The notes beneath the pieces were generated by a model. The model made no database searches. It saw only the letters and a program-made list of their open reading frames with translations, and was not told where the DNA came from. A DNA stretch of 47,297 nucleotides from Prochlorococcus sp. AG-459-B06 (GTDB lineage Bacteria; Cyanobacteriota; Cyanobacteriia; PCC-6307; Cyanobiaceae). Positions within the stretch are counted from its first letter, which is position 1, and every line of letters starts with the position of its first letter. The DNA is taken from contig QCQY01000011.1 of NCBI GenBank assembly GCA_003209475.1, forward strand, positions 1 through 47,297. Reading direction: 5' to 3'. Position numbers and translations under genes: made by a program. This document shows, in pieces, positions 41,493 to 47,297 of this stretch.

Positions 41493-41822
41493 TCAGCACT
41501 CATTCAGAATAGATTCCCATCTTTGTTGACTTGCCTTTATTGCTTGCATTGGCGGATTAGCACCCTCTATTTCAAAGGCTTTAATTAATGATTTATTAGC
41601 TAATAGACCTAATCTTGCGGCCTCTCTTTGCCTAGAGCATACTTTTTTTCTTGATCCTTCTTTTAAACTATTTTCGATTTCTTTAAGAATCTGGCTAGCT
41701 TCATTCGATTTAGAATAAAAATCATTCATGTAAACATCAAGTGCCGTATCAGCAAAGATTTCAACTGGAGAGATTATTGTGACTAAGCACACTATAAAAC
41801 TTACAAATACAAATATTTTCAT
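41493..41822 (-). CDS. Small exported protein, unknown
   Basis: A 109-residue protein with a signal peptide (residues 1-25, ending EIFADT). The mature part is helical (YSKSNEASQILKEIENSLKEG) with two cysteines near residue 62 (KVCSRQR) and at the C-terminus (NEC) that could pair. A conserved-looking NPPMQAIKASQQRWESIL closes it. No family recognised. It starts 7 bases after the stop of the upstream minus-strand membrane gene and is probably cotranscribed. Confidence 0.65.
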   Translation of the reverse strand: MKIFVFVSFIVCLVTIISPVEIFADTALDVYMNDFYSKSNEASQILKEIENSLKEGSRKKVCSRQREAARLGLLANKSLIKAFEIEGANPPMQAIKASQQRWESILNEC

Positions 41823-41829
41823 AAGAATC

Positions 41830-42414
41830 TTAAGTAAATTTTTTGTCCGATCTCTTTAATACTAAATAAAAGGTAAGAACGCTAATTGTTCCAGATGGGC
41901 CTATTAAAACATGCCAAAATTGATCGCCACTAATTGAGAGCCTTGTGCCAAAGAAAGTCGTAAAAATAATACCAAATATTGGGTAAAGTATAAAAAGCCA
42001 ATCTTTAAAAACTCTTTGCCAATTTATAATAAGAAGGATACTTATTATTACTTGAAAAAGGAGAGCAATAGTTTTATCAAATAAAAAATATGAGATTATT
42101 GAACATAAAGAAATGCAAATATTAGTTTTTTGAATAAATTTATTTTTTATAACTGATATTGATAAACATGTTAGACCTAAAGAAAGGAAAGAATAAAATA
42201 ACCAATTAAATAAAGAGGAGTGATCTACATAAATCCAAGATGTTTGGGCATGATCTATCATTTCAGAAATCGATGCCAATCCTAAAAAAATAAAACCGAA
42301 AGATATCAATTTGTTCTCGCTTATATGTTTGAATTTATTGATCGATCTTATACCTAATAATATTGGGATGATTGCCGCTTGGAGGTGGGCAAATAATAAA
42401 ATTGAAAAAAACAA
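41830..42414 (-). CDS. Polytopic membrane protein with buried His/Asp/Glu, unknown
   Basis: A 194-residue protein with about six or seven helices. Polar residues within or near helices stand out: SEMIDHAQTSWIYVDHSSLF near residue 55 and SGDQFWHVLIGPSG near residue 170. Such patterns occur in membrane hydrolases of the CREST type (ceramidase/PAQR) and in channels, but I cannot assign it. The start is TTG, and no ATG lies upstream before a stop. It is followed 7 bases later by the small exported protein. Confidence 0.55.
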   Translation of the reverse strand: MFFSILLFAHLQAAIIPILLGIRSINKFKHISENKLISFGFIFLGLASISEMIDHAQTSWIYVDHSSLFNWLFYSFLSLGLTCLSISVIKNKFIQKTNICISLCSIISYFLFDKTIALLFQVIISILLIINWQRVFKDWLFILYPIFGIIFTTFFGTRLSISGDQFWHVLIGPSGTISVLTFYLVLKRSDKKFT

Positions 42415-42467
42415 AATAAATTCTCAAACTTAATTCATCCTAATTTAAATAAAAAAAAAGTTTCGGG

Positions 42468-42668
42468 TCACCTGAGTAGAGAAAGGTACCATTGCCCGAT
42501 TACTACAATCAATATTGTAAGAACAAAAGGAAAAGCGGGATATCGTGTTTGAAAATTAGCAGGTGGCCAAGGAGACCAAGATATTAATCTTCCTTGCGGT
42601 TCATTTGAAATAAATTTTTTTTTCGATTTTTTGGATATTAAATTTTCTGTGGCAAATCCTTTACTCAT
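42468..42668 (-). CDS. Small single-helix membrane protein, unknown
   Basis: A 66-residue protein with a basic N-terminus (SKKSKKKFI), a WSPWPPANFQTRYPAFP segment, and one C-terminal membrane helix. ATG start. No family recognised. The Pro/Trp-rich stretch before the helix suggests a membrane-surface segment. It lies 74 bases from tRNA-Ser. Confidence 0.55.
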   Translation of the reverse strand: MSKGFATENLISKKSKKKFISNEPQGRLISWSPWPPANFQTRYPAFPFVLTILIVVIGQWYLSLLR

Positions 42669-42742
42669 AGTCTAAATACAATTTAATATAACAAGAACGT
42701 TTCAAAAGAGCGTTTATAATATTCCGTTCTTTTTATTTGAAC

Positions 42743-42828
42743 GGAGGGGGTGGGATTCGAACCCACGGTGCCCTTGCAGACACGCTAGTTTTCAAGACTA
42801 GAGCCTTAAACCACTCGACCACCCCTCC
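42743..42828 (-). tRNA. trnS-UGA: tRNA-Ser (anticodon UGA)
   Basis: Read on the minus strand it begins GGAGGGGTGGTCGAGTGGTT and ends with CCCACCCCCTCC. A 7-bp acceptor stem, a D arm with GTGGTTTAAGGC, the anticodon stem-loop CTAGT-CTTGAAA-ACTAG with anticodon TGA, a long variable arm and the T arm GTTCGAATCCC are all seen. CCA is not encoded. 86 bases. The 5' half is duplicated at 43882-43928. Confidence 0.97.
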
Positions 42829-42831
42829 AGG
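42785..42831 (-). repeat. Putative att core, copy 1 (tRNA-Ser 5' half)
   Basis: 47 bases covering the anticodon loop to the 5' end of tRNA-Ser plus three bases outside are identical to 43882-43928. This is a typical integrase crossover target. The complete tRNA gene stays intact here. Confidence 0.8.
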
Positions 42832-42856
42832 TTAAATATTTAGTTTTAACTTTTGA

Positions 42857-42862
42857 ATTATA
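42857..42862 (-). promoter_or_regulatory. -10 box upstream of tRNA-Ser
   Basis: TATAAT on the minus strand, 28 bases before the tRNA 5' end. If the repeat pair marks an insertion, this promoter belongs to the inserted side and replaces the original one, which would lie beyond 43928 (a TATAGT there). Confidence 0.5.
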
Positions 42863-42973
42863 GCAGTATTGAGTTGCAGAAAGGTTTCCTGATTTAGTGG
42901 ATATTTAAAAATAAAAATATGTTTTATGATTTGAATTTACTAAAAAGGTTTTAAAAGTAATTTTCATAGAAAA

Positions 42974-43015
42974 TGGTCCCTATTTGGTCCCCTCATTTTT
43001 AGATCGACTGTCAAT
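42974..43015. repeat. Paired TGGTCCC motif followed by 27-base repeat R1
   Basis: TGGTCCC at 42974 and again at 42985 (period 11) is followed by a 27-base element ending GATCGACTGTCAAT (42989-43015). The element recurs at 43340-43365 with one T fewer, and the paired motif recurs at 43761. The placement suggests recombinase arm sites or element ends. Confidence 0.6.
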
Positions 43016-43048
43016 TACTAACTATTAGCAGTGCAAGTAGTAAGCGTT

Positions 43049-43321
43049 TCATTTATCTAGTTTAGACACGTTATCCCAGCTAGCTGGTTTCTTTGCCCAA
43101 TCCCCATCACTTTGTGGCTCTTTTGAATTTTTCTCTCCTTCTATTTGCCTAATATATTTTCTAAGTTTTTTATCTGGTAATCCTGCTGCTGCTATTAAGG
43201 CAAAAAACCCGAAAAATAATCCTCCCAAAAACCATGCGACAGGAAGATAACCTTTTTCATTGGCTAATATTGCACAAAAAAGAGCACTTGCAAGCCAGCC
43301 AATAACAACAACAAATAACAT
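43049..43321 (-). CDS. Small two-helix membrane protein, unknown
   Basis: A 90-residue protein with two hydrophobic helices (residues 1-20 and 27-47, the second GGLFFGFFALIAAAGLPDKK) and a charged, Lys/Trp-containing tail. Similar short proteins with this glycine-rich second helix occur in phages and bacteria; I know no function. The gene lies in the interval between the two tRNA-Ser repeats and could be cargo. ATG start. R1 sits 33 bases after its stop. Confidence 0.6.
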   Translation of the reverse strand: MLFVVVIGWLASALFCAILANEKGYLPVAWFLGGLFFGFFALIAAAGLPDKKLRKYIRQIEGEKNSKEPQSDGDWAKKPASWDNVSKLDK

Positions 43322-43339
43322 TAAAAAAGGAGCTAATTG

Positions 43340-43365
43340 CCCCTCATTTTAGATCGACTGTCAAT
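43340..43365. repeat. 26-base repeat R2
   Basis: CCCCTCATTTT then AGATCGACTGTCAAT, matching R1 except for one T. It lies 6 bases past the stop of the DUF3303 gene. A third, partial copy of the left part (14 of 15 bases) is at 43713-43727. Confidence 0.65.
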
Positions 43366-43371
43366 CTCTAT

Positions 43372-43644
43372 CTATGAGTAGACTTTAGCAACTATTGGAC
43401 CAGCTTCTTCATCAGTAAATACAGGTGTGGTTTCCCAATTTAGAAATTCAGCCCATTCAGCGGCATGTTGATATATTGCTTTTGGATCATCAGTCTTTAA
43501 AACTATCCAACCCTCTAAAGAACCAGGTGCATGATACCTTCCAATCATCTCAACTCCAGGATAATCTCCCCCACCACCAAGAAATTTTTCTGCACCTTTT
43601 TGATGATATCCAGTCTTAAATGACCAATGCTGAACATAAAGCAT
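43372..43644 (-). CDS. DUF3303 family small protein
   Basis: A 90-residue soluble protein beginning MLYVQHWSFKTGYHQKGAE. GRYHAPGSLEGWIVLKTDD near residue 35 and the end GPIVAKVYS fit the DUF3303 pattern, a ferredoxin-like dimeric alpha/beta-barrel-type fold of unknown function. It lies between the tRNA-Ser repeats with the membrane protein gene, in the same orientation. The start ATG follows an A-rich stretch. Possibly cargo of the putative element or a resident gene. Confidence 0.72.
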   Translation of the reverse strand: MLYVQHWSFKTGYHQKGAEKFLGGGGDYPGVEMIGRYHAPGSLEGWIVLKTDDPKAIYQHAAEWAEFLNWETTPVFTDEEAGPIVAKVYS

Positions 43645-43881
43645 TTTTTTTTAATTTTATAGGCTTTATATTACTAGCAAAAAAAATAATTCTTGAAAAT
43701 AAATAATGTTAGTTGCCCCTTATTTTATCAGTGTGATTCATAAATTATAGATATTTTTACTGGTCCCAAAATGGTCCCCCTGTCTCGATGGCTAAATTTT
43801 ATTATCAATATTGTCTTATTGAGATCTGTCTTATATCAATGCTTTTAAAAAATTCTTATAAATTCTTTTTATAGAGACTCC
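43645..43881. other. Non-coding end of the interval between tRNA-Ser repeats
   Basis: No coding frame is supported. It contains the partial R3 (43713-43727) and a second paired motif TGGTCCC-AAAA-TGGTCCCC at 43761-43779 (period 11), about 100 bases before att copy 2. I see nothing resembling an integrase gene. Confidence 0.5.
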
Positions 43882-43928
43882 CTAGTTTTCAAGACTAGAG
43901 CCTTAAACCACTCGACCACCCCTCCAGG
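43882..43928 (-). repeat. Putative att core, copy 2 (tRNA-Ser 5'-half fragment)
   Basis: An exact 47-base copy of 42785-42831 in the same orientation, without the rest of the tRNA (no variable arm, T arm or 3' acceptor strand). A minus-strand TATAGT lies about 25 bases upstream, so a short tRNA-like RNA might still be transcribed. Confidence 0.85.
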
Positions 43929-44089
43929 GTTCTTCAGTTTTATGAACTTAAAAACTATAACATAAGAAATTAGTCACAGTCTATAAATTCAAAGATTTAA
44001 AAATTATTTCAAGAAACTAGTTTGAGATAGGAAATTTTATTAATAATGATGGGTTAAATCGTTATAACAATCTATCATTAGTCAAATTT

Positions 44090-44113
44090 AGTCCACAAAA
44101 TGAGTCCACAAAA
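44090..44113. repeat. Tandem 11-base repeat with 13-base period
   Basis: AGTCCACAAAA occurs at 44090-44100 and 44103-44113, same orientation, 2 bases between. It lies 162 bases beyond att copy 2 and 22 bases before the 49-residue minus-strand gene's stop. It could be an external arm-type site, or chance in AT-rich DNA. Confidence 0.45.
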
Positions 44114-44135
44114 ATCTAGTCTGCTTTCAAAAAAA

Positions 44136-44285
44136 TCACCCAAAGTTGACATTTTGTTGAAATAAACCAAACAAGTTATTTCCAACTATGGCAGCGATTA
44201 TTAAAACGAAAGCAACTATGGCGAAAAGAGCACTAACATCTTTTATGTCATAAGGTGCTTTAAATAAAGGTTTTTGGTCTGCCAT
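44136..44285 (-). CDS. Small single-helix membrane protein (49 aa), unknown
   Basis: Reading frame from ATG 44285 to TGA, product MADQKPLFKAPYDIKDVSAL then a hydrophobic helix FAIVAFVLIIAAIVGNNLFG and a short polar end. The composition (DQKPLFKAPYD leader, one helix) resembles small thylakoid subunits, but no chlorophyll-binding motif is seen. The ribosome site is weak. Real because of strong hydrophobic pattern and lack of competing frames. Confidence 0.6.
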   Translation of the reverse strand: MADQKPLFKAPYDIKDVSALFAIVAFVLIIAAIVGNNLFGLFQQNVNFG

Positions 44286-44376
44286 GGTTATCTAAATATA
44301 TAAATGCAATTGAATCATATTACTTTAATGCTTGTGAGAAGTATTAAGTTATTTTTTAGCCTAAGAATGGACAATA

Positions 44377-44402
44377 AAAAAGCCACTAAAAGTGGCTTTT
44401 TC
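44377..44402 (-). terminator. Rho-independent terminator of the DUF4278 gene
   Basis: AGCCACT at 44381-44387 pairs with AGTGGCT at 44391-44397, 3-base loop, with A and T runs on both sides, so it can work in either direction. It ends 20 bases after the DUF4278 stop on the minus strand. Confidence 0.85.
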
Positions 44403-44421
44403 TATTAAATAGTTAAATAAA

Positions 44422-44523
44422 CTAGCTTGTGTAAGCTTTTCCTCTATAAGTTAGTTCATTGTGGTGCTTTTTAGCTGCTTCTTTGTTCTGGACGTACTTT
44501 TGCCCTCTGTAAGTTAGAGTCAT
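44422..44523 (-). CDS. DUF4278 small protein (33 aa)
   Basis: A 33-residue product MTLTYRGQKYVQNKEAAKK...KHHNELTYRGKAYTS. It carries two copies of the LTYRGxxY motif, the DUF4278 hallmark in cyanobacteria. The function is unknown. The gene has a promoter, a long structured leader (44524-44618), a GGAGC ribosome site before the ATG and a terminator, so it looks like a well-expressed monocistronic unit. It is too short for usual gene callers. Confidence 0.8.
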   Translation of the reverse strand: MTLTYRGQKYVQNKEAAKKHHNELTYRGKAYTS

Positions 44524-44632
44524 TTTTCAAGCTCCGTTTCGCTTAAGTCCCCGTTCCATGGCTTAAGTCGATTTGCGGCTTGCTATACGCAAGTTGAACG
44601 TTTTAGTAGTGGTTGCTACAGATTTATAATAA
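44524..44632 (-). promoter_or_regulatory. Promoter and structured 5' leader of the DUF4278 gene
   Basis: Minus strand: TATTAT at 44626-44631 is a -10 candidate, giving a leader of about 95 bases that is richer in GC than its surroundings. It holds a CTTGC-TATAC-GCAAG hairpin (44579-44593) and two GACTTAAGC repeats (44541-44549 and 44561-44569) whose CTTAAG cores can pair. Function unknown. Confidence 0.5.
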
Positions 44633-44701
44633 CATCCATTAAAATTATTTGTCTAGGTTTTTAATAAATAAACTTAATACATTAATGATTGATTAGGCTT
44701 C

Positions 44702-44719
44702 TGATAAAAATATTTATCA
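44702..44719. repeat. TGATAAA-N4-TTTATCA inverted repeat
   Basis: 7-bp perfect arms around AATA, 110 bases before the 64-residue gene at 44829. It resembles Fur/Zur-type operators only loosely. Might be a regulatory site or chance in AT-rich sequence. Confidence 0.35.
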
Positions 44720-44828
44720 TAAATCCCAGCGTAATTGCTTACAGGTTACATTTTGTTCGTTTTTGAGAAGTATTTTTTATTTAGTGAACTTTTAAATGTA
44801 AAATTCTTAAGATTATAAAATTTGTTTT

Positions 44829-45023
44829 ATGTTTTCGAGAAGCAAAAAACCTACAGTAAAAAAATCTGCAATAGTTGAAGAGACTCCATTATTTGCTCAA
44901 TTATTACCATTCGCAAACAGAATGAATGATAAGGTTCAATTGGTAAATGCTTTGGCTTTTACTTTTATTATGGGATTCTCAATTTTTGGAATTGCTCTAT
45001 GGAAACTATCAGGGCTGACCTAA
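44829..45023 (+). CDS. Small single-helix membrane protein, Hli-like in shape
   Basis: A 64-residue protein with a basic N-terminus (MFSRSKKPTVKKSA), PLFAQLLPFANRMNDKVQLV and one membrane helix (about residues 40-60, ALAFTFIMGFSIFGIALW). Position and size recall high-light-inducible proteins, but the ExxNGRxAM chlorophyll-binding motif is not present, only NRMNDK. It ends 4 bases into the convergent minus-strand gene. Function unknown; a thylakoid-linked role is a guess. Confidence 0.6.
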   Translation: MFSRSKKPTVKKSAIVEETPLFAQLLPFANRMNDKVQLVNALAFTFIMGFSIFGIALWKLSGLT

Positions 45024-45286
45024 TTATTTAATTTTTGCAAAGCATCAATTTTTGATTCTTTGTTTTCAATTATGGTTATTAGCCATCTAGAGGCTAGGCC
45101 TCTGGATATTGATCTATTTTTTAGAAATCTACATATATATACATGTAGATTTTTTTCGTTTTTGGAGTTAAATTTTTCCTCAAAATCTAAGATATCCTCT
45201 TCTGATGTTCTTTTTCTTAGCTCGTCAACTAATGCATGACTAGAGGAATCATTAAAAAAGTTCCCAATATTTAAGCTTAATGTCAT
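45020..45286 (-). CDS. Small conserved-looking soluble protein, unknown
   Basis: An 88-residue protein, MTLSLNIGNFFNDSSSHALV then EEDILDFEEKFN and RSISRGLASRWLITIIENKE. Mostly helical, mixed charge. No family recognised. ATG start. The DNA for residues about 43-54 forms a perfect 10-bp inverted repeat with a T run on the opposite strand (45125-45156). It is convergent and overlapping (4 bases) with the 64-residue membrane gene. Confidence 0.55.
   Translation of the reverse strand: MTLSLNIGNFFNDSSSHALVDELRKRTSEEDILDFEEKFNSKNEKNLHVYICRFLKNRSISRGLASRWLITIIENKESKIDALQKLNN
45125..45156 (+). terminator. Hairpin plus T run, likely terminator for the 44829 gene
   Basis: AAATCTACAT (45125-45134) and ATGTAGATTT (45143-45152) are perfect complements with an 8-base loop, followed by T to 45156. 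It lies about 100 bases after the plus-strand gene's stop, inside the minus-strand coding region. Confidence 0.6.
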
Positions 45287-45374
45287 AAATAATTTATGTT
45301 CCTATTTAAGAGGTAGCCATAAATTAAATTTTTAAAAACTAATTTATATTTTTTATTTACAAATAATTCAAAAA

Positions 45375-47297
45375 TTAATCTTTTGGTTTAGCAAGAGGAA
45401 GCAAGCACTTATCTGAATCACAACCTGCTGGTCCTGCTTCAGATAGTTCTCCAACATCATATTTATTAAGAGCATCAAAGAAATCGTTATTAACTTTCCT
45501 CTCTATTACTTTATTTTGCAATGATATATATTCATCTTTACTTATTGGTTCAAAGGGTAATCTAGGGAAAGTAGCGTTAGCACTAAATCTAGCTAGCAAT
45601 GCCGCTGAAATATATCCTTCATTATTTTCTATTGCATTATGAATAGCCTTAGCTAGGTCCTCGATTTCATTTTCTCTAAATTCTACGGTTGCAGAGGTAT
45701 TATGCTCCGTGTAAAATTTCTGCACTTGCATGTAAAAATCAAATTGAGCTAATGCCGAGAAATTATTGATGTCTATTTGGTCTGCACCATCTATATTTGC
45801 CCAACTAACTTCTGTAGGGATCTCAACTAACCATTCTGTACATCTTGGATCAAATGGATTATTGAGCAAGCAACCATTTTCATCTTTATCAGATTGAGAT
45901 GGAACAACTGAGTATCCATAATCCATGCAAGCTAAAGCGATTGGATCATTTTTCCTGAAAGTTATTCTTCTTATAAATCTTTGAGCCTTTGGAGGATGCC
46001 ATCCTGGAGCTGCTCCTGTAAGAAGACTTTTAGTTCCAGCTGGCTGAACTGTTGTGCATCTATTTGGTCTCCTTAGATTGTGCCTATCACAATATTCCCA
46101 TACAGTTTCTTTTACTATCTTTCTCCAATAATCTAAGAATTTAGCTTCCTTTTTTTTGAAAGCCTTCCCTTCTTCGCTATTTGGCCTTCCTGCTTCCCAC
46201 CATTTCAACCATGGCGTCCCAAAAGCATGGACACAAAAATCAAATAATCCAGTGAAACTTACTCCTACAATAGGATCATATTCTCTACTTTTTCTGTAAC
46301 GCTCAACTTCAAATTCATGATTAAGTAAGCATGCTACAGAAAGAGCTGCTGCCTTAAAAGCTTTTTTTTGCTCTTCAAAATTTTCAGGATCTATCTGATT
46401 CAAATGAACTTCAGCCAAATTGCAGTGGAAATCATTTCCCAAGATCTCACCACAAGGGTTAAGTCCATATCGACTCATCCTGTGGTCTAACTCTTCTTCA
46501 GAGAATGGACCATAACTACTATTAATCCAATTTCTCGCTTCATCCTTACCTTGCTCTGAGTAGATTTCAATAAATTCCTTTCTCAATTCGTCATCTTTGA
46601 GAATATCTGCATTTGACCTTGCGATTGCTTCTGGAGCAAATTGAATAGCTCCCTCACCTGAGTGGAATTGTTTTGTTACAGCATCCAAAACAGTTTGGTA
46701 AGTGGGTTTTGTATGGTAAACCCTAGTATGATTAGCCATCCTGAGGGCATCTTTTTCAGGATCTATTCTCCAATTACCATTCTCATCTTGACTCCATAAA
46801 TTTTCTTTTGCCGATGCTGCTTCCCTATCATCTGAAGCAAATTGTCTCATTCCAGCACTTCTTCTTATATTTCCAGCAACTATAGTTACTGCAGCTTCAT
46901 CAATTAATAAACAACATTCTACTGTACTTAATTTCCTGCCTATTGCCTTTCCAAGAAGTGATGCGACTCTGGAGTAGAGATCTTTCAATTTAATAGGATT
47001 TGCCATCCCACCAAAACCTTTTAATGATTCTCCAGCAGGTCTAATATCTTCCAAGTTTATATAAACATCAATTTCTCTTTCAAGATTTTCATTACTTGAT
47101 GCCTCAAGAAGATATTTATAGCTATCTACCCAGCCTCTTCTGCTATCTCCAACTTTGATGTGAAGATCTTTTCCTTTGATTTCTATTGATGACTTTTCTT
47201 CTCTTTGATCTTTAGGAGTTATTCCAACTTCACTGACTGATTTAATATTTATTTTGTTGATTACAGTAGGTAGATTATTTATAAAATGAGGCTCAAT
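45375..47297 (-). CDS. nrdJ: NrdJ, B12-dependent class II ribonucleotide reductase (5' end outside window)
   Basis: 640 residues of a class II reductase that makes deoxyribonucleotides using adenosylcobalamin. The frame is open to base 47297, so the start is outside; the TTG at 47054 is internal. VGDSRRGWVDSYKYLLEAS near the cut end and IRPAGESLKGFGG match the family's substrate-side Cys-free loop. NPCGEILGNDFHCNL holds the radical Cys and a redox partner, with the Glu of the active site at NPCGE. The C-terminus CDSDKC (CxxxxC) is the shuttle Cys pair of RTPR-type monomeric enzymes. Its B12 need ties it to CbiX upstream. Confidence 0.93.
   Translation of the reverse strand: MEPHFINNLPTVINKINIKSVSEVGITPKDQREEKSSIEIKGKDLHIKVGDSRRGWVDSYKYLLEASSNENLEREIDVYINLEDIRPAGESLKGFGGMANPIKLKDLYSRVASLLGKAIGRKLSTVECCLLIDEAAVTIVAGNIRRSAGMRQFASDDREAASAKENLWSQDENGNWRIDPEKDALRMANHTRVYHTKPTYQTVLDAVTKQFHSGEGAIQFAPEAIARSNADILKDDELRKEFIEIYSEQGKDEARNWINSSYGPFSEEELDHRMSRYGLNPCGEILGNDFHCNLAEVHLNQIDPENFEEQKKAFKAAALSVACLLNHEFEVERYRKSREYDPIVGVSFTGLFDFCVHAFGTPWLKWWEAGRPNSEEGKAFKKKEAKFLDYWRKIVKETVWEYCDRHNLRRPNRCTTVQPAGTKSLLTGAAPGWHPPKAQRFIRRITFRKNDPIALACMDYGYSVVPSQSDKDENGCLLNNPFDPRCTEWLVEIPTEVSWANIDGADQIDINNFSALAQFDFYMQVQKFYTEHNTSATVEFRENEIEDLAKAIHNAIENNEGYISAALLARFSANATFPRLPFEPISKDEYISLQNKVIERKVNNDFFDALNKYDVGELSEAGPAGCDSDKCLLPLAKPKD

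Follow-up and report, generated by a model that had tools for sequence, protein, structure and literature searches.

A gene-sized cassette at the tRNA-Ser(UGA) gene of Prochlorococcus, probably inserted by a recombinase supplied from elsewhere

In the variable islands of Prochlorococcus, many genes adjoin no recombinase gene, and the route by which they arrived is unclear. Integron gene cassettes offer one model of acquisition at a fixed address: they are small, and they collect at one site through a recombinase provided in trans. The tycheposons of Prochlorococcus, which Hackl et al. are said to have described in Cell in 2023, reportedly insert at tRNA sites by way of a tyrosine recombinase. 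The subject here is a 1,097-bp unit lying against the tRNA-Ser(UGA) gene of Prochlorococcus sp. AG-459-B06, in a stretch of 47,297 nucleotides (contig QCQY01000011.1; hereafter, the window, meaning the whole stretch), that is bounded by two copies of the 5' half of the tRNA gene and carries a pair of short direct repeats (the "arms") near each end. It is probably a non-autonomous integrative cassette whose insertion was the work of a lambda-type tyrosine recombinase provided in trans.

Tycheposons, as presented in the available part of one source, range from 4 to 200 kb and have a tyrosine recombinase as their hallmark (PMC10872708; on tycheposons also PMC11389934); the genus, the tRNA insertion sites and the tyrosine recombinase are what they have in common with the tRNA-Ser locus. 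The window cassette, like them, has inserted at a tRNA gene and is bounded by a direct repeat, but it has no recombinase of its own, falls below that size range at 1,097 bp, uses the 5' half of the tRNA, and bears an arm code unseen on the left end of integrase-encoding elements. Those larger elements at the same tRNA gene (with an integrase, a Prim-Pol, a VapE-like helicase, an excisionase-like protein and a weak small-terminase match) do look like satellite-type tycheposons; the window cassette holds no genes for replication, packaging or capsid interference, and in that respect differs from phage satellites of the phage-inducible chromosomal island (PICI) type. Genes of this sort are present in L059, an integrase element at this tRNA. 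Cis-mobilizable elements (CIMEs), in the sections of the source at hand, share with the window's cassettes the lack of integration and transfer genes, the retention of attL and attR, and tandem accretion at one site, but are by definition decayed integrative and conjugative elements (ICEs) or integrative and mobilizable elements (IMEs) (PMC5704250), whereas cassettes of the window's class are gene-sized and no parent element was found for them in 266 genomes. Judged by sequence, the window cassette retains the equivalent of attL and attR, in that its core is intact and the arm pairs of its two ends match. The ssrA islands of Dehalococcoides likewise form tandem series at a single RNA gene, lack an integration module in 15 cases, and carry ecologically important genes; they differ in using a serine recombinase, the 3' end of tmRNA and its downstream side, and no arm code is described in the available passages (PMC3146451). 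Closer to home, the region of Prochlorococcus MIT9313 that has been proposed for attachment of P-SS2 contains partial tRNA-Met copies, and Synechococcus RS9917 has a tRNA-Ser-bounded island. Here, too, incomplete tRNA copies and hypervariable islands are found next to tRNA genes of marine picocyanobacteria, but the excerpts at hand associate them with tRNA-Met and transposases, or with a relic prophage, and describe no arm-bounded cassettes (PMC2784084). The likeness to integron cassettes (small, gene-carrying, one site, recombinase in trans) does not extend to the core, which is a tRNA anticodon arm, or to the arm pairs at both ends, and no integron integrase was identified in the host genome, which is 75.5% complete. 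What was covered of the literature on Prochlorococcus islands and tRNA integration, or on trans-mobilised elements, from titles to passages, describes no such arm-bounded cassettes. The best reading is that the window cassette acts like a CIME or like a non-autonomous tycheposon.

The tRNA-Ser(tga) gene is intact (42741-42829, minus strand; ARAGORN, and the Rfam tRNA model). The 47 bases at 42785-42831, which run from the start of the anticodon stem (the core, CTAGT-TTTCAAG-ACTAG, 42785-42801) to 2 nt past the 5' end of the tRNA, recur in the same orientation at 43882-43928, 1,097 bp from start to start. At 47 identities in 47 positions, chance can be dismissed as the origin of the repeat. The first copy forms the tRNA's 5' half, and no 3' half adjoins the second, as an earlier note, written from the sequence without database searches, had stated. 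That note also counted two small minus-strand genes between the copies. These are open reading frames (ORFs) of 90 amino acids each: the product of 43372-43644 is a DUF3303 protein (Pfam PF11746, E 1e-24; best match among solved structures, E 0.34), and that of 43049-43321, for which no Pfam family was matched, is a membrane protein by reading only. Both are taken as cargo. None of the ORFs listed between the copies is an integrase, again as claimed, and two weak PHROG hits in the insert are to proteins of unknown function. The left end of the cassette occupies 42832-43048 and the right end 43645-43881. The arms, which the earlier note overlooked, are TGGTCCC-N4-TGGTCCC pairs with an 11-bp period, at 42974-42991 (189 bp after the start of the core) and at 43761-43778 (121 bp before the displaced core). 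Relatives of the left end were found at 23 places in 21 of the 266 genomes (E below 1e-12).

The 266 genomes of the genus Prochlorococcus that form the comparison set gave matches to a 103-bp query around the tRNA in 253 cases, the weakest of which may be other tRNAs. Eighty loci from relatives, mostly the best listed matches (G043, G216 and G232 were added for a nearby integrase hit), were classified together with the window. This sample of 81 is not random, its classes overlap, and the class counts should be read as minima: BLAST had shown displaced copies in L036 and L078 that escaped the ungapped scan. At least one displaced 5' half is present at 49 of the 81 loci; a displaced 3' half, on the opposite side of the tRNA, at 21; and both kinds at 16. 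On the 5' side, 13 loci are empty, with no displaced half and the next conserved small gene less than 300 bp away. Inserts of 0.5-2.5 kb with varying cargo occupy 19 loci and inserts of 4.6-11.6 kb another class of 10, six of which encode an integrase of one family; tandem arrays were seen at nine. Elements that displace the 5' half sit upstream of the tRNA, and their mirror images, which displace the 3' half, sit downstream.

One empty site is particularly instructive. In genome G022 (locus L047) the tRNA directly adjoins the sequence that follows the displaced half in the window (86% identity over 183 bp), the small gene beyond, shared with the window, stands at 194 bp, and nrdJ is 96% identical to that of the window; by this comparison the window looks like a G022-type empty site that has gained 1,097 bp. 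The aligned loci thus give good support to site-specific insertion into tRNA-Ser(UGA), because the site in relatives is empty, holds other cassettes, or holds integrase-encoding elements. The earlier note had proposed integration at this tRNA and had named the finding that would sink it, namely all relatives carrying the same two copies with the same two genes; nothing of the kind was seen among the 81 loci. The proposal that the tRNA 5' half was merely duplicated locally, without site-specific recombination, has nothing beyond the repeat itself to recommend it and must contend with recurrent halves that share a defined exchange point, with empty sites and with matched arms; it is extremely improbable.

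Where are strands exchanged? Displaced halves, 62 of the 5' type and 27 of the 3' type, were collected from 108 loci (the 81 and 27 more; three of the 108 lack an intact tRNA) and compared position by position with the tRNA of the window. Loci and displaced copies share descent, so that the summed mismatch cells are not independent: for 5' halves they come to 78/310 in the left stem (CTAGT), 11/434 in the loop (TTTCAAG) and 11/310 in the right stem, and for 3' halves to 3/135, 9/189 and 39/135, respectively. The variable stem is the one that the element itself would supply, and exchange is for that reason placed, with good probability, within the 7-nt anticodon loop (42790-42796). Seven nucleotides is a usual size for a tyrosine-recombinase overlap.

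Paired short direct repeats are found at both ends of many elements, and they come in classes. Cassettes related to that of the window have TGGTCTC or GGTCAC arms; integrase elements have CGGAAC or CGGAAAC arms (11-bp period), or AGTCCAC, AGGCCAC or AGTCATCAT (13-14-bp period); and elements that displace the 3' half have pairs of their own (e.g., AGTTCACC and TATGACCG), at distances of 46-51 bp from one end and, in most cases, 130-146 bp from the opposite one. Agreement between the arms of an element was scored as the longest substring common to its left-arm and right-arm windows, against 20,000 permutations of partners (the windows were set after the arms had been seen, and the permutations used identical windows). 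The mean match within elements is 9.94 bases on the 5' side (n=33), as against 7.35 (sd 0.27) for permuted partners, and 11.37 on the 3' side (n=27), as against 7.63 (sd 0.53); no permutation reached the observed mean on either side (0/20,000). An exact search of the 266 genomes for TGGTCNC-N4-TGGTCNC found 28 occurrences in 16 genomes, and none of the reversed pattern. Each of the 28 stands in one of two set positions relative to a tRNA-Ser half: left arms 188-194 bp past its start, right arms 120-123 bp ahead of it. Most bound integrase-less cassettes; a hybrid integrase element (L115) of G160 ends in the motif, and in G068, G077, G116 and G237 the element with the motif is not whole in one sequence piece. 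L115 and L200 look like hybrids that join the ends of two arm classes. Derivation of the window cassette by shrinkage of an integrase element of class A (CGGAAC arms) or class C (AGTCCAC/AGGCCAC arms) was considered and rejected, because the right arms of those classes stand about 63-68 bp from the displaced half, against 120-123 bp in the window's class, and their left ends differ.

The proposed mechanism can now be put together. At the cassette's attachment site, the core would match the anticodon stem-loop of tRNA-Ser(UGA) exactly; a copy of the tRNA 5' half and a leader would adjoin it on one side, and the flanks would bear two pairs of arm repeats with 11-bp spacing, which, we infer, bind an integrase. 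A lambda-type tyrosine recombinase from elsewhere would exchange strands inside the 7-nt loop, and the cassette would land on the 5' side of the tRNA; the tRNA would receive a new, identical 5' half together with a new leader, and the 5' half of the host would be pushed to the far end. In the window, the first 47-bp copy would then be the cassette's and the second the host's, and the present tRNA gene a composite of a cassette-borne 5' half and a host 3' half. A TATAAT at 42857-42862 (minus strand), in the leader at the cassette's left end, is probably a promoter for the tRNA; it is absent from the promoter-scan list, and the proposal comes from reading the sequence. The original host-side tRNA leader would be found at 43929-44135 (by-eye comparison with empty sites and class C ends); with its two copies of AGTCCAC at 44090-44110 (13-bp period) it resembles a class C left end, and is perhaps an older relic. 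Insertion, the exchange region, variability of cargo, discordance in relatedness between some cassettes and their genomes and, for most of the class, the match between arms are backed by comparison among relatives. The helper would act in trans, and the cassette may still be mobile. Of the options offered by the earlier note, a satellite relying on a recombinase elsewhere fits best, with the helper in trans as its conjectural part.

Have cassettes of this family actually moved? They appear to have done so between strains, to judge from discordant identities. A cassette shared by G113 and G099 is 98.4% identical over 871 bp, against 91.7% for nrdJ; conversely, G108 and G151 have nrdJ 98.2% identical, yet their cargo differs and only 340 bp of cassette can be aligned. 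The largest cargo is an 11.6-kb insert between tRNA and displaced half in L148 (G021) and L102 (G119), in which no integrase ORF was found and which carries genes for urea use: in L148, 10 of 12 proteins score above NCBIfam cut-offs, as UreA, UreB, UreC, UreE, UreG and UrtA to UrtE, and the remaining proteins, read as UreD and UreF, have no NCBIfam match; the genes of L102 are named by their likeness to these. GGTCAC-type arms form exact pairs at both ends of L148 and are degenerate in L102. The ureC genes of G119 and G021 are 96.5% identical, against 91.0% for nrdJ and 81.5% for one core region, and ureC of G021 is 85.0-86.3% identical to that of four other genomes. Each of 21 out of 22 hand-picked genomes has one copy of ureC, and in G021 and G119 it is the copy at tRNA-Ser; in 12 genomes with ureC and the tRNA on one contig, the two are about 134-166 kb apart. 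L102 and L148 were also considered as the autonomous parent of the GGTCNC-armed cassettes and rejected, as they carry urease and urea-transporter genes and no integrase ORF.

Several observations weigh against a mobile, helper-dependent cassette. 1) Nineteen of the 81 loci lack a displaced copy and are not empty either; they comprise diverged copies, contig ends or larger islands. 2) The arm match is 7 bases or less, no better than with permuted partners, in 19 of 60 elements (11 of the 33 on the upstream side and 8 of the 27 on the downstream side). 3) The window cassette is 95.0% and 97.2% identical to those of G161 and G112 over 784 bp, which is close to the values for nrdJ (94.9% and 94.0%) and for core sequence (92.2% in both). 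4) The urease cassettes of G119 and G021 are 83.1% identical over the 11.3 kb that can be aligned, and therefore are not simple recent copies. 5) Homologous recombination through the flanks could generate discordant relatedness, too. 6) No excised circle was seen: two end patterns gave 0 and 0 matches in viral_contigs, where the exact junction was not among the patterns searched, and the tRNA half itself is found in one contig of that set. 7) No gene of the tRNA-Ser integrase family was found beside a GGTCNC left arm in the 266 genomes. 8) The single PF00589 hit in the window's host genome, which is 75.5% complete, is a chromosomal gene.

One can accommodate much of this by supposing that the cassette is dead: that deletion removed the middle of a larger integrase element and that the remainder has been passed on vertically or by ordinary homologous recombination of the locus. 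The cassette has no integrase; displaced halves decay; the arms of 19 of 60 elements do not match; L115 and L200 look like two-class hybrids; and the roughly 122-bp "mini" inserts with a single arm pair, at 28 of the 81 loci, resemble the end products of such loss. What is harder to reconcile with a remnant is that matched arms agree inside an element and differ between elements, that GGTCNC arms keep fixed distances to the core in 28 of 28 cases, that the left ends of this class are unlike those of the integrase elements seen, so that no parent is known, and that larger cargo is organised, the 11.6-kb urease and urea-transporter insert being the example. A dead remnant is accordingly unlikely, if not negligibly so. 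The words "scar" and "nearly emptied", by which the earlier note had described the locus, are a poorer fit: both ends keep matched arm-type repeats, cassettes look transferred, and the family includes an 11.6-kb urease cassette. The mini inserts have a conserved 120-123 bp between tRNA and displaced half (e.g., L034, L037 and L040) and usually one arm pair, CGGAAC or CGGAAAC, some 65 bp short of the displaced half; they are possibly solo docking sites or a shared relic.

If the cassette is mobilised in trans, candidate helpers have to be sought elsewhere. A family of tyrosine recombinases of about 380-430 amino acids, whose elements (6.6-9.1 kb) have arm pairs of their own, is tied to tRNA-Ser(UGA): a search with one member gave 30 first loci, 26 of which contain tRNA-Ser(tga), and in the scanned loci 28 of 31 hits to a hidden Markov model (HMM) lie 146-699 bp from the tRNA and are coded away from it. 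(The other three are a tandem second element 214 bp after a displaced half, a contig with an inverted duplication, and a weak hit; 20 of the scanned loci had been chosen for such hits.) Nine columns are invariant in the family, among them R261, K284, R355-H356, G377 and Y387. A predicted structure (pLDDT 80.3, pTM 0.51) has an N-terminal three-strand-plus-helix domain, and its fold is matched by the XerA and Tn1549 integrase structures (E 1e-6 to 6e-4 for the best 12), at 11-18% sequence identity and with modest query TM-scores of 0.27-0.42. No relatives of the integrase were found in viral_contigs or in phage records (0 in each). The elements of L059-L061 (8.1-8.7 kb) encode a second, short tyrosine recombinase as well, and L059 carries the satellite-type set of Prim-Pol, VapE-like helicase, excisionase-like protein and weak small-terminase match.

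The window's host itself offers a different sort of helper: a 389-aa tyrosine recombinase, its PF00589 hit, encoded on the chromosome (G000:C8 28179-29348; L152 4180-5349), which would make of the cassettes a host-run exchange system instead of satellites of mobile elements. It is homologous to the tRNA-Ser integrases over most of its length, with R, K, RH, GH and Y kept; its gene lies between genes read as hemH-like and cobO-like, with no tRNA in a 12-kb stretch that includes it; frames of about its size recur in many genomes of the genus among the matches listed; and only G116 and G160 of the 16 genomes with the GGTCNC motif have a match to the tRNA-Ser integrase family better than E 1e-17, leaving 14 without. 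On the other hand, GGTCNC pairs occur in the 266 genomes solely at tRNA-Ser halves, and so none lies beside the 389-aa gene; the protein may serve chromosome-dimer resolution; and several of the 16 genomes are incomplete, while a helper can come from outside. (The NCBIfam model named XerA/integron integrase gives it 38.7 bits, where the cut-off is 220.) That this protein is the helper is decidedly doubtful, and the same degree of doubt attaches to the broader suggestion that GGTCNC-armed cassettes are an orphan family of gene-sized units that dock at tRNA-Ser(UGA) and are moved by it or by another host recombinase. Were that so, Prochlorococcus would have an integron-like system whose loads range from one small gene to an 11.6-kb urease/urea-transporter cluster.

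With a trans-acting recombinase of whatever origin, which remains the favoured reading, the locus is a testable unit: its arm code can be read, its exchange region is a defined 7 nt, one tRNA is used from both sides, and cargo extends to a urea-use cluster. If the recombinase is identified, short end sequences would allow gene acquisition by an abundant phototroph to be predicted in part. The arm code also lets one look for non-autonomous cassettes, which surveys keyed to integrases would overlook.

Some further features deserve brief mention. On the downstream side of L059 there is a different, 429-aa tyrosine recombinase together with a 205-aa protein read as a serine resolvase. The former, with the putative resolvase, is a candidate helper for elements that displace the 3' half; the pair recalls the integrase plus small serine recombinase noted for tRNA-Phe and tRNA-Cys in the part of the source available (PMC10187409). 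In G077 (L145/L146) about 31 kb separate an intact tRNA-Ser from a displaced 3' half beside a GGTCTC-armed end, which makes for a large downstream-side island. The right ends of L059, L060, L061, L090, L093, L113 and L115 contain, by eye, a second anticodon-arm-like sequence with an altered loop, about 70-130 bp before the displaced half. An Rfam scan of 41800-45400 returned, above gathering score, just the tRNA and a glutamine-II riboswitch (44542-44603, minus strand, 69 bits).

Three related short repeats had been reported inside the cassette. Two of them share TAGATCGACTGTCAAT exactly (43000-43015 and 43350-43365, the second beside a terminator-like hairpin on the minus strand, 43327-43345, immediately ahead of the putative membrane-protein gene's start codon); the third, near 43715-43740, is by reading only loosely alike. 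Twelve genomes have 4-17 copies each of TAGATCGACTGTCAAT (at most one mismatch), often clustered, against none for a reversed control, and it is present in L002 and L003 as well. Among elements on the downstream side, 17 of 27 contain a 14-base part of it (at most two mismatches), as do 4 of 33 on the upstream side. This part is often accompanied by a second module, AAGTAGTAAGCGTTTCA (at most three mismatches), which is found in 17 of 27 and 9 of 33, respectively; the reversed controls gave 0/60 in both cases. TAGATCGACTGTCAAT may mark the joints between gene cassettes.

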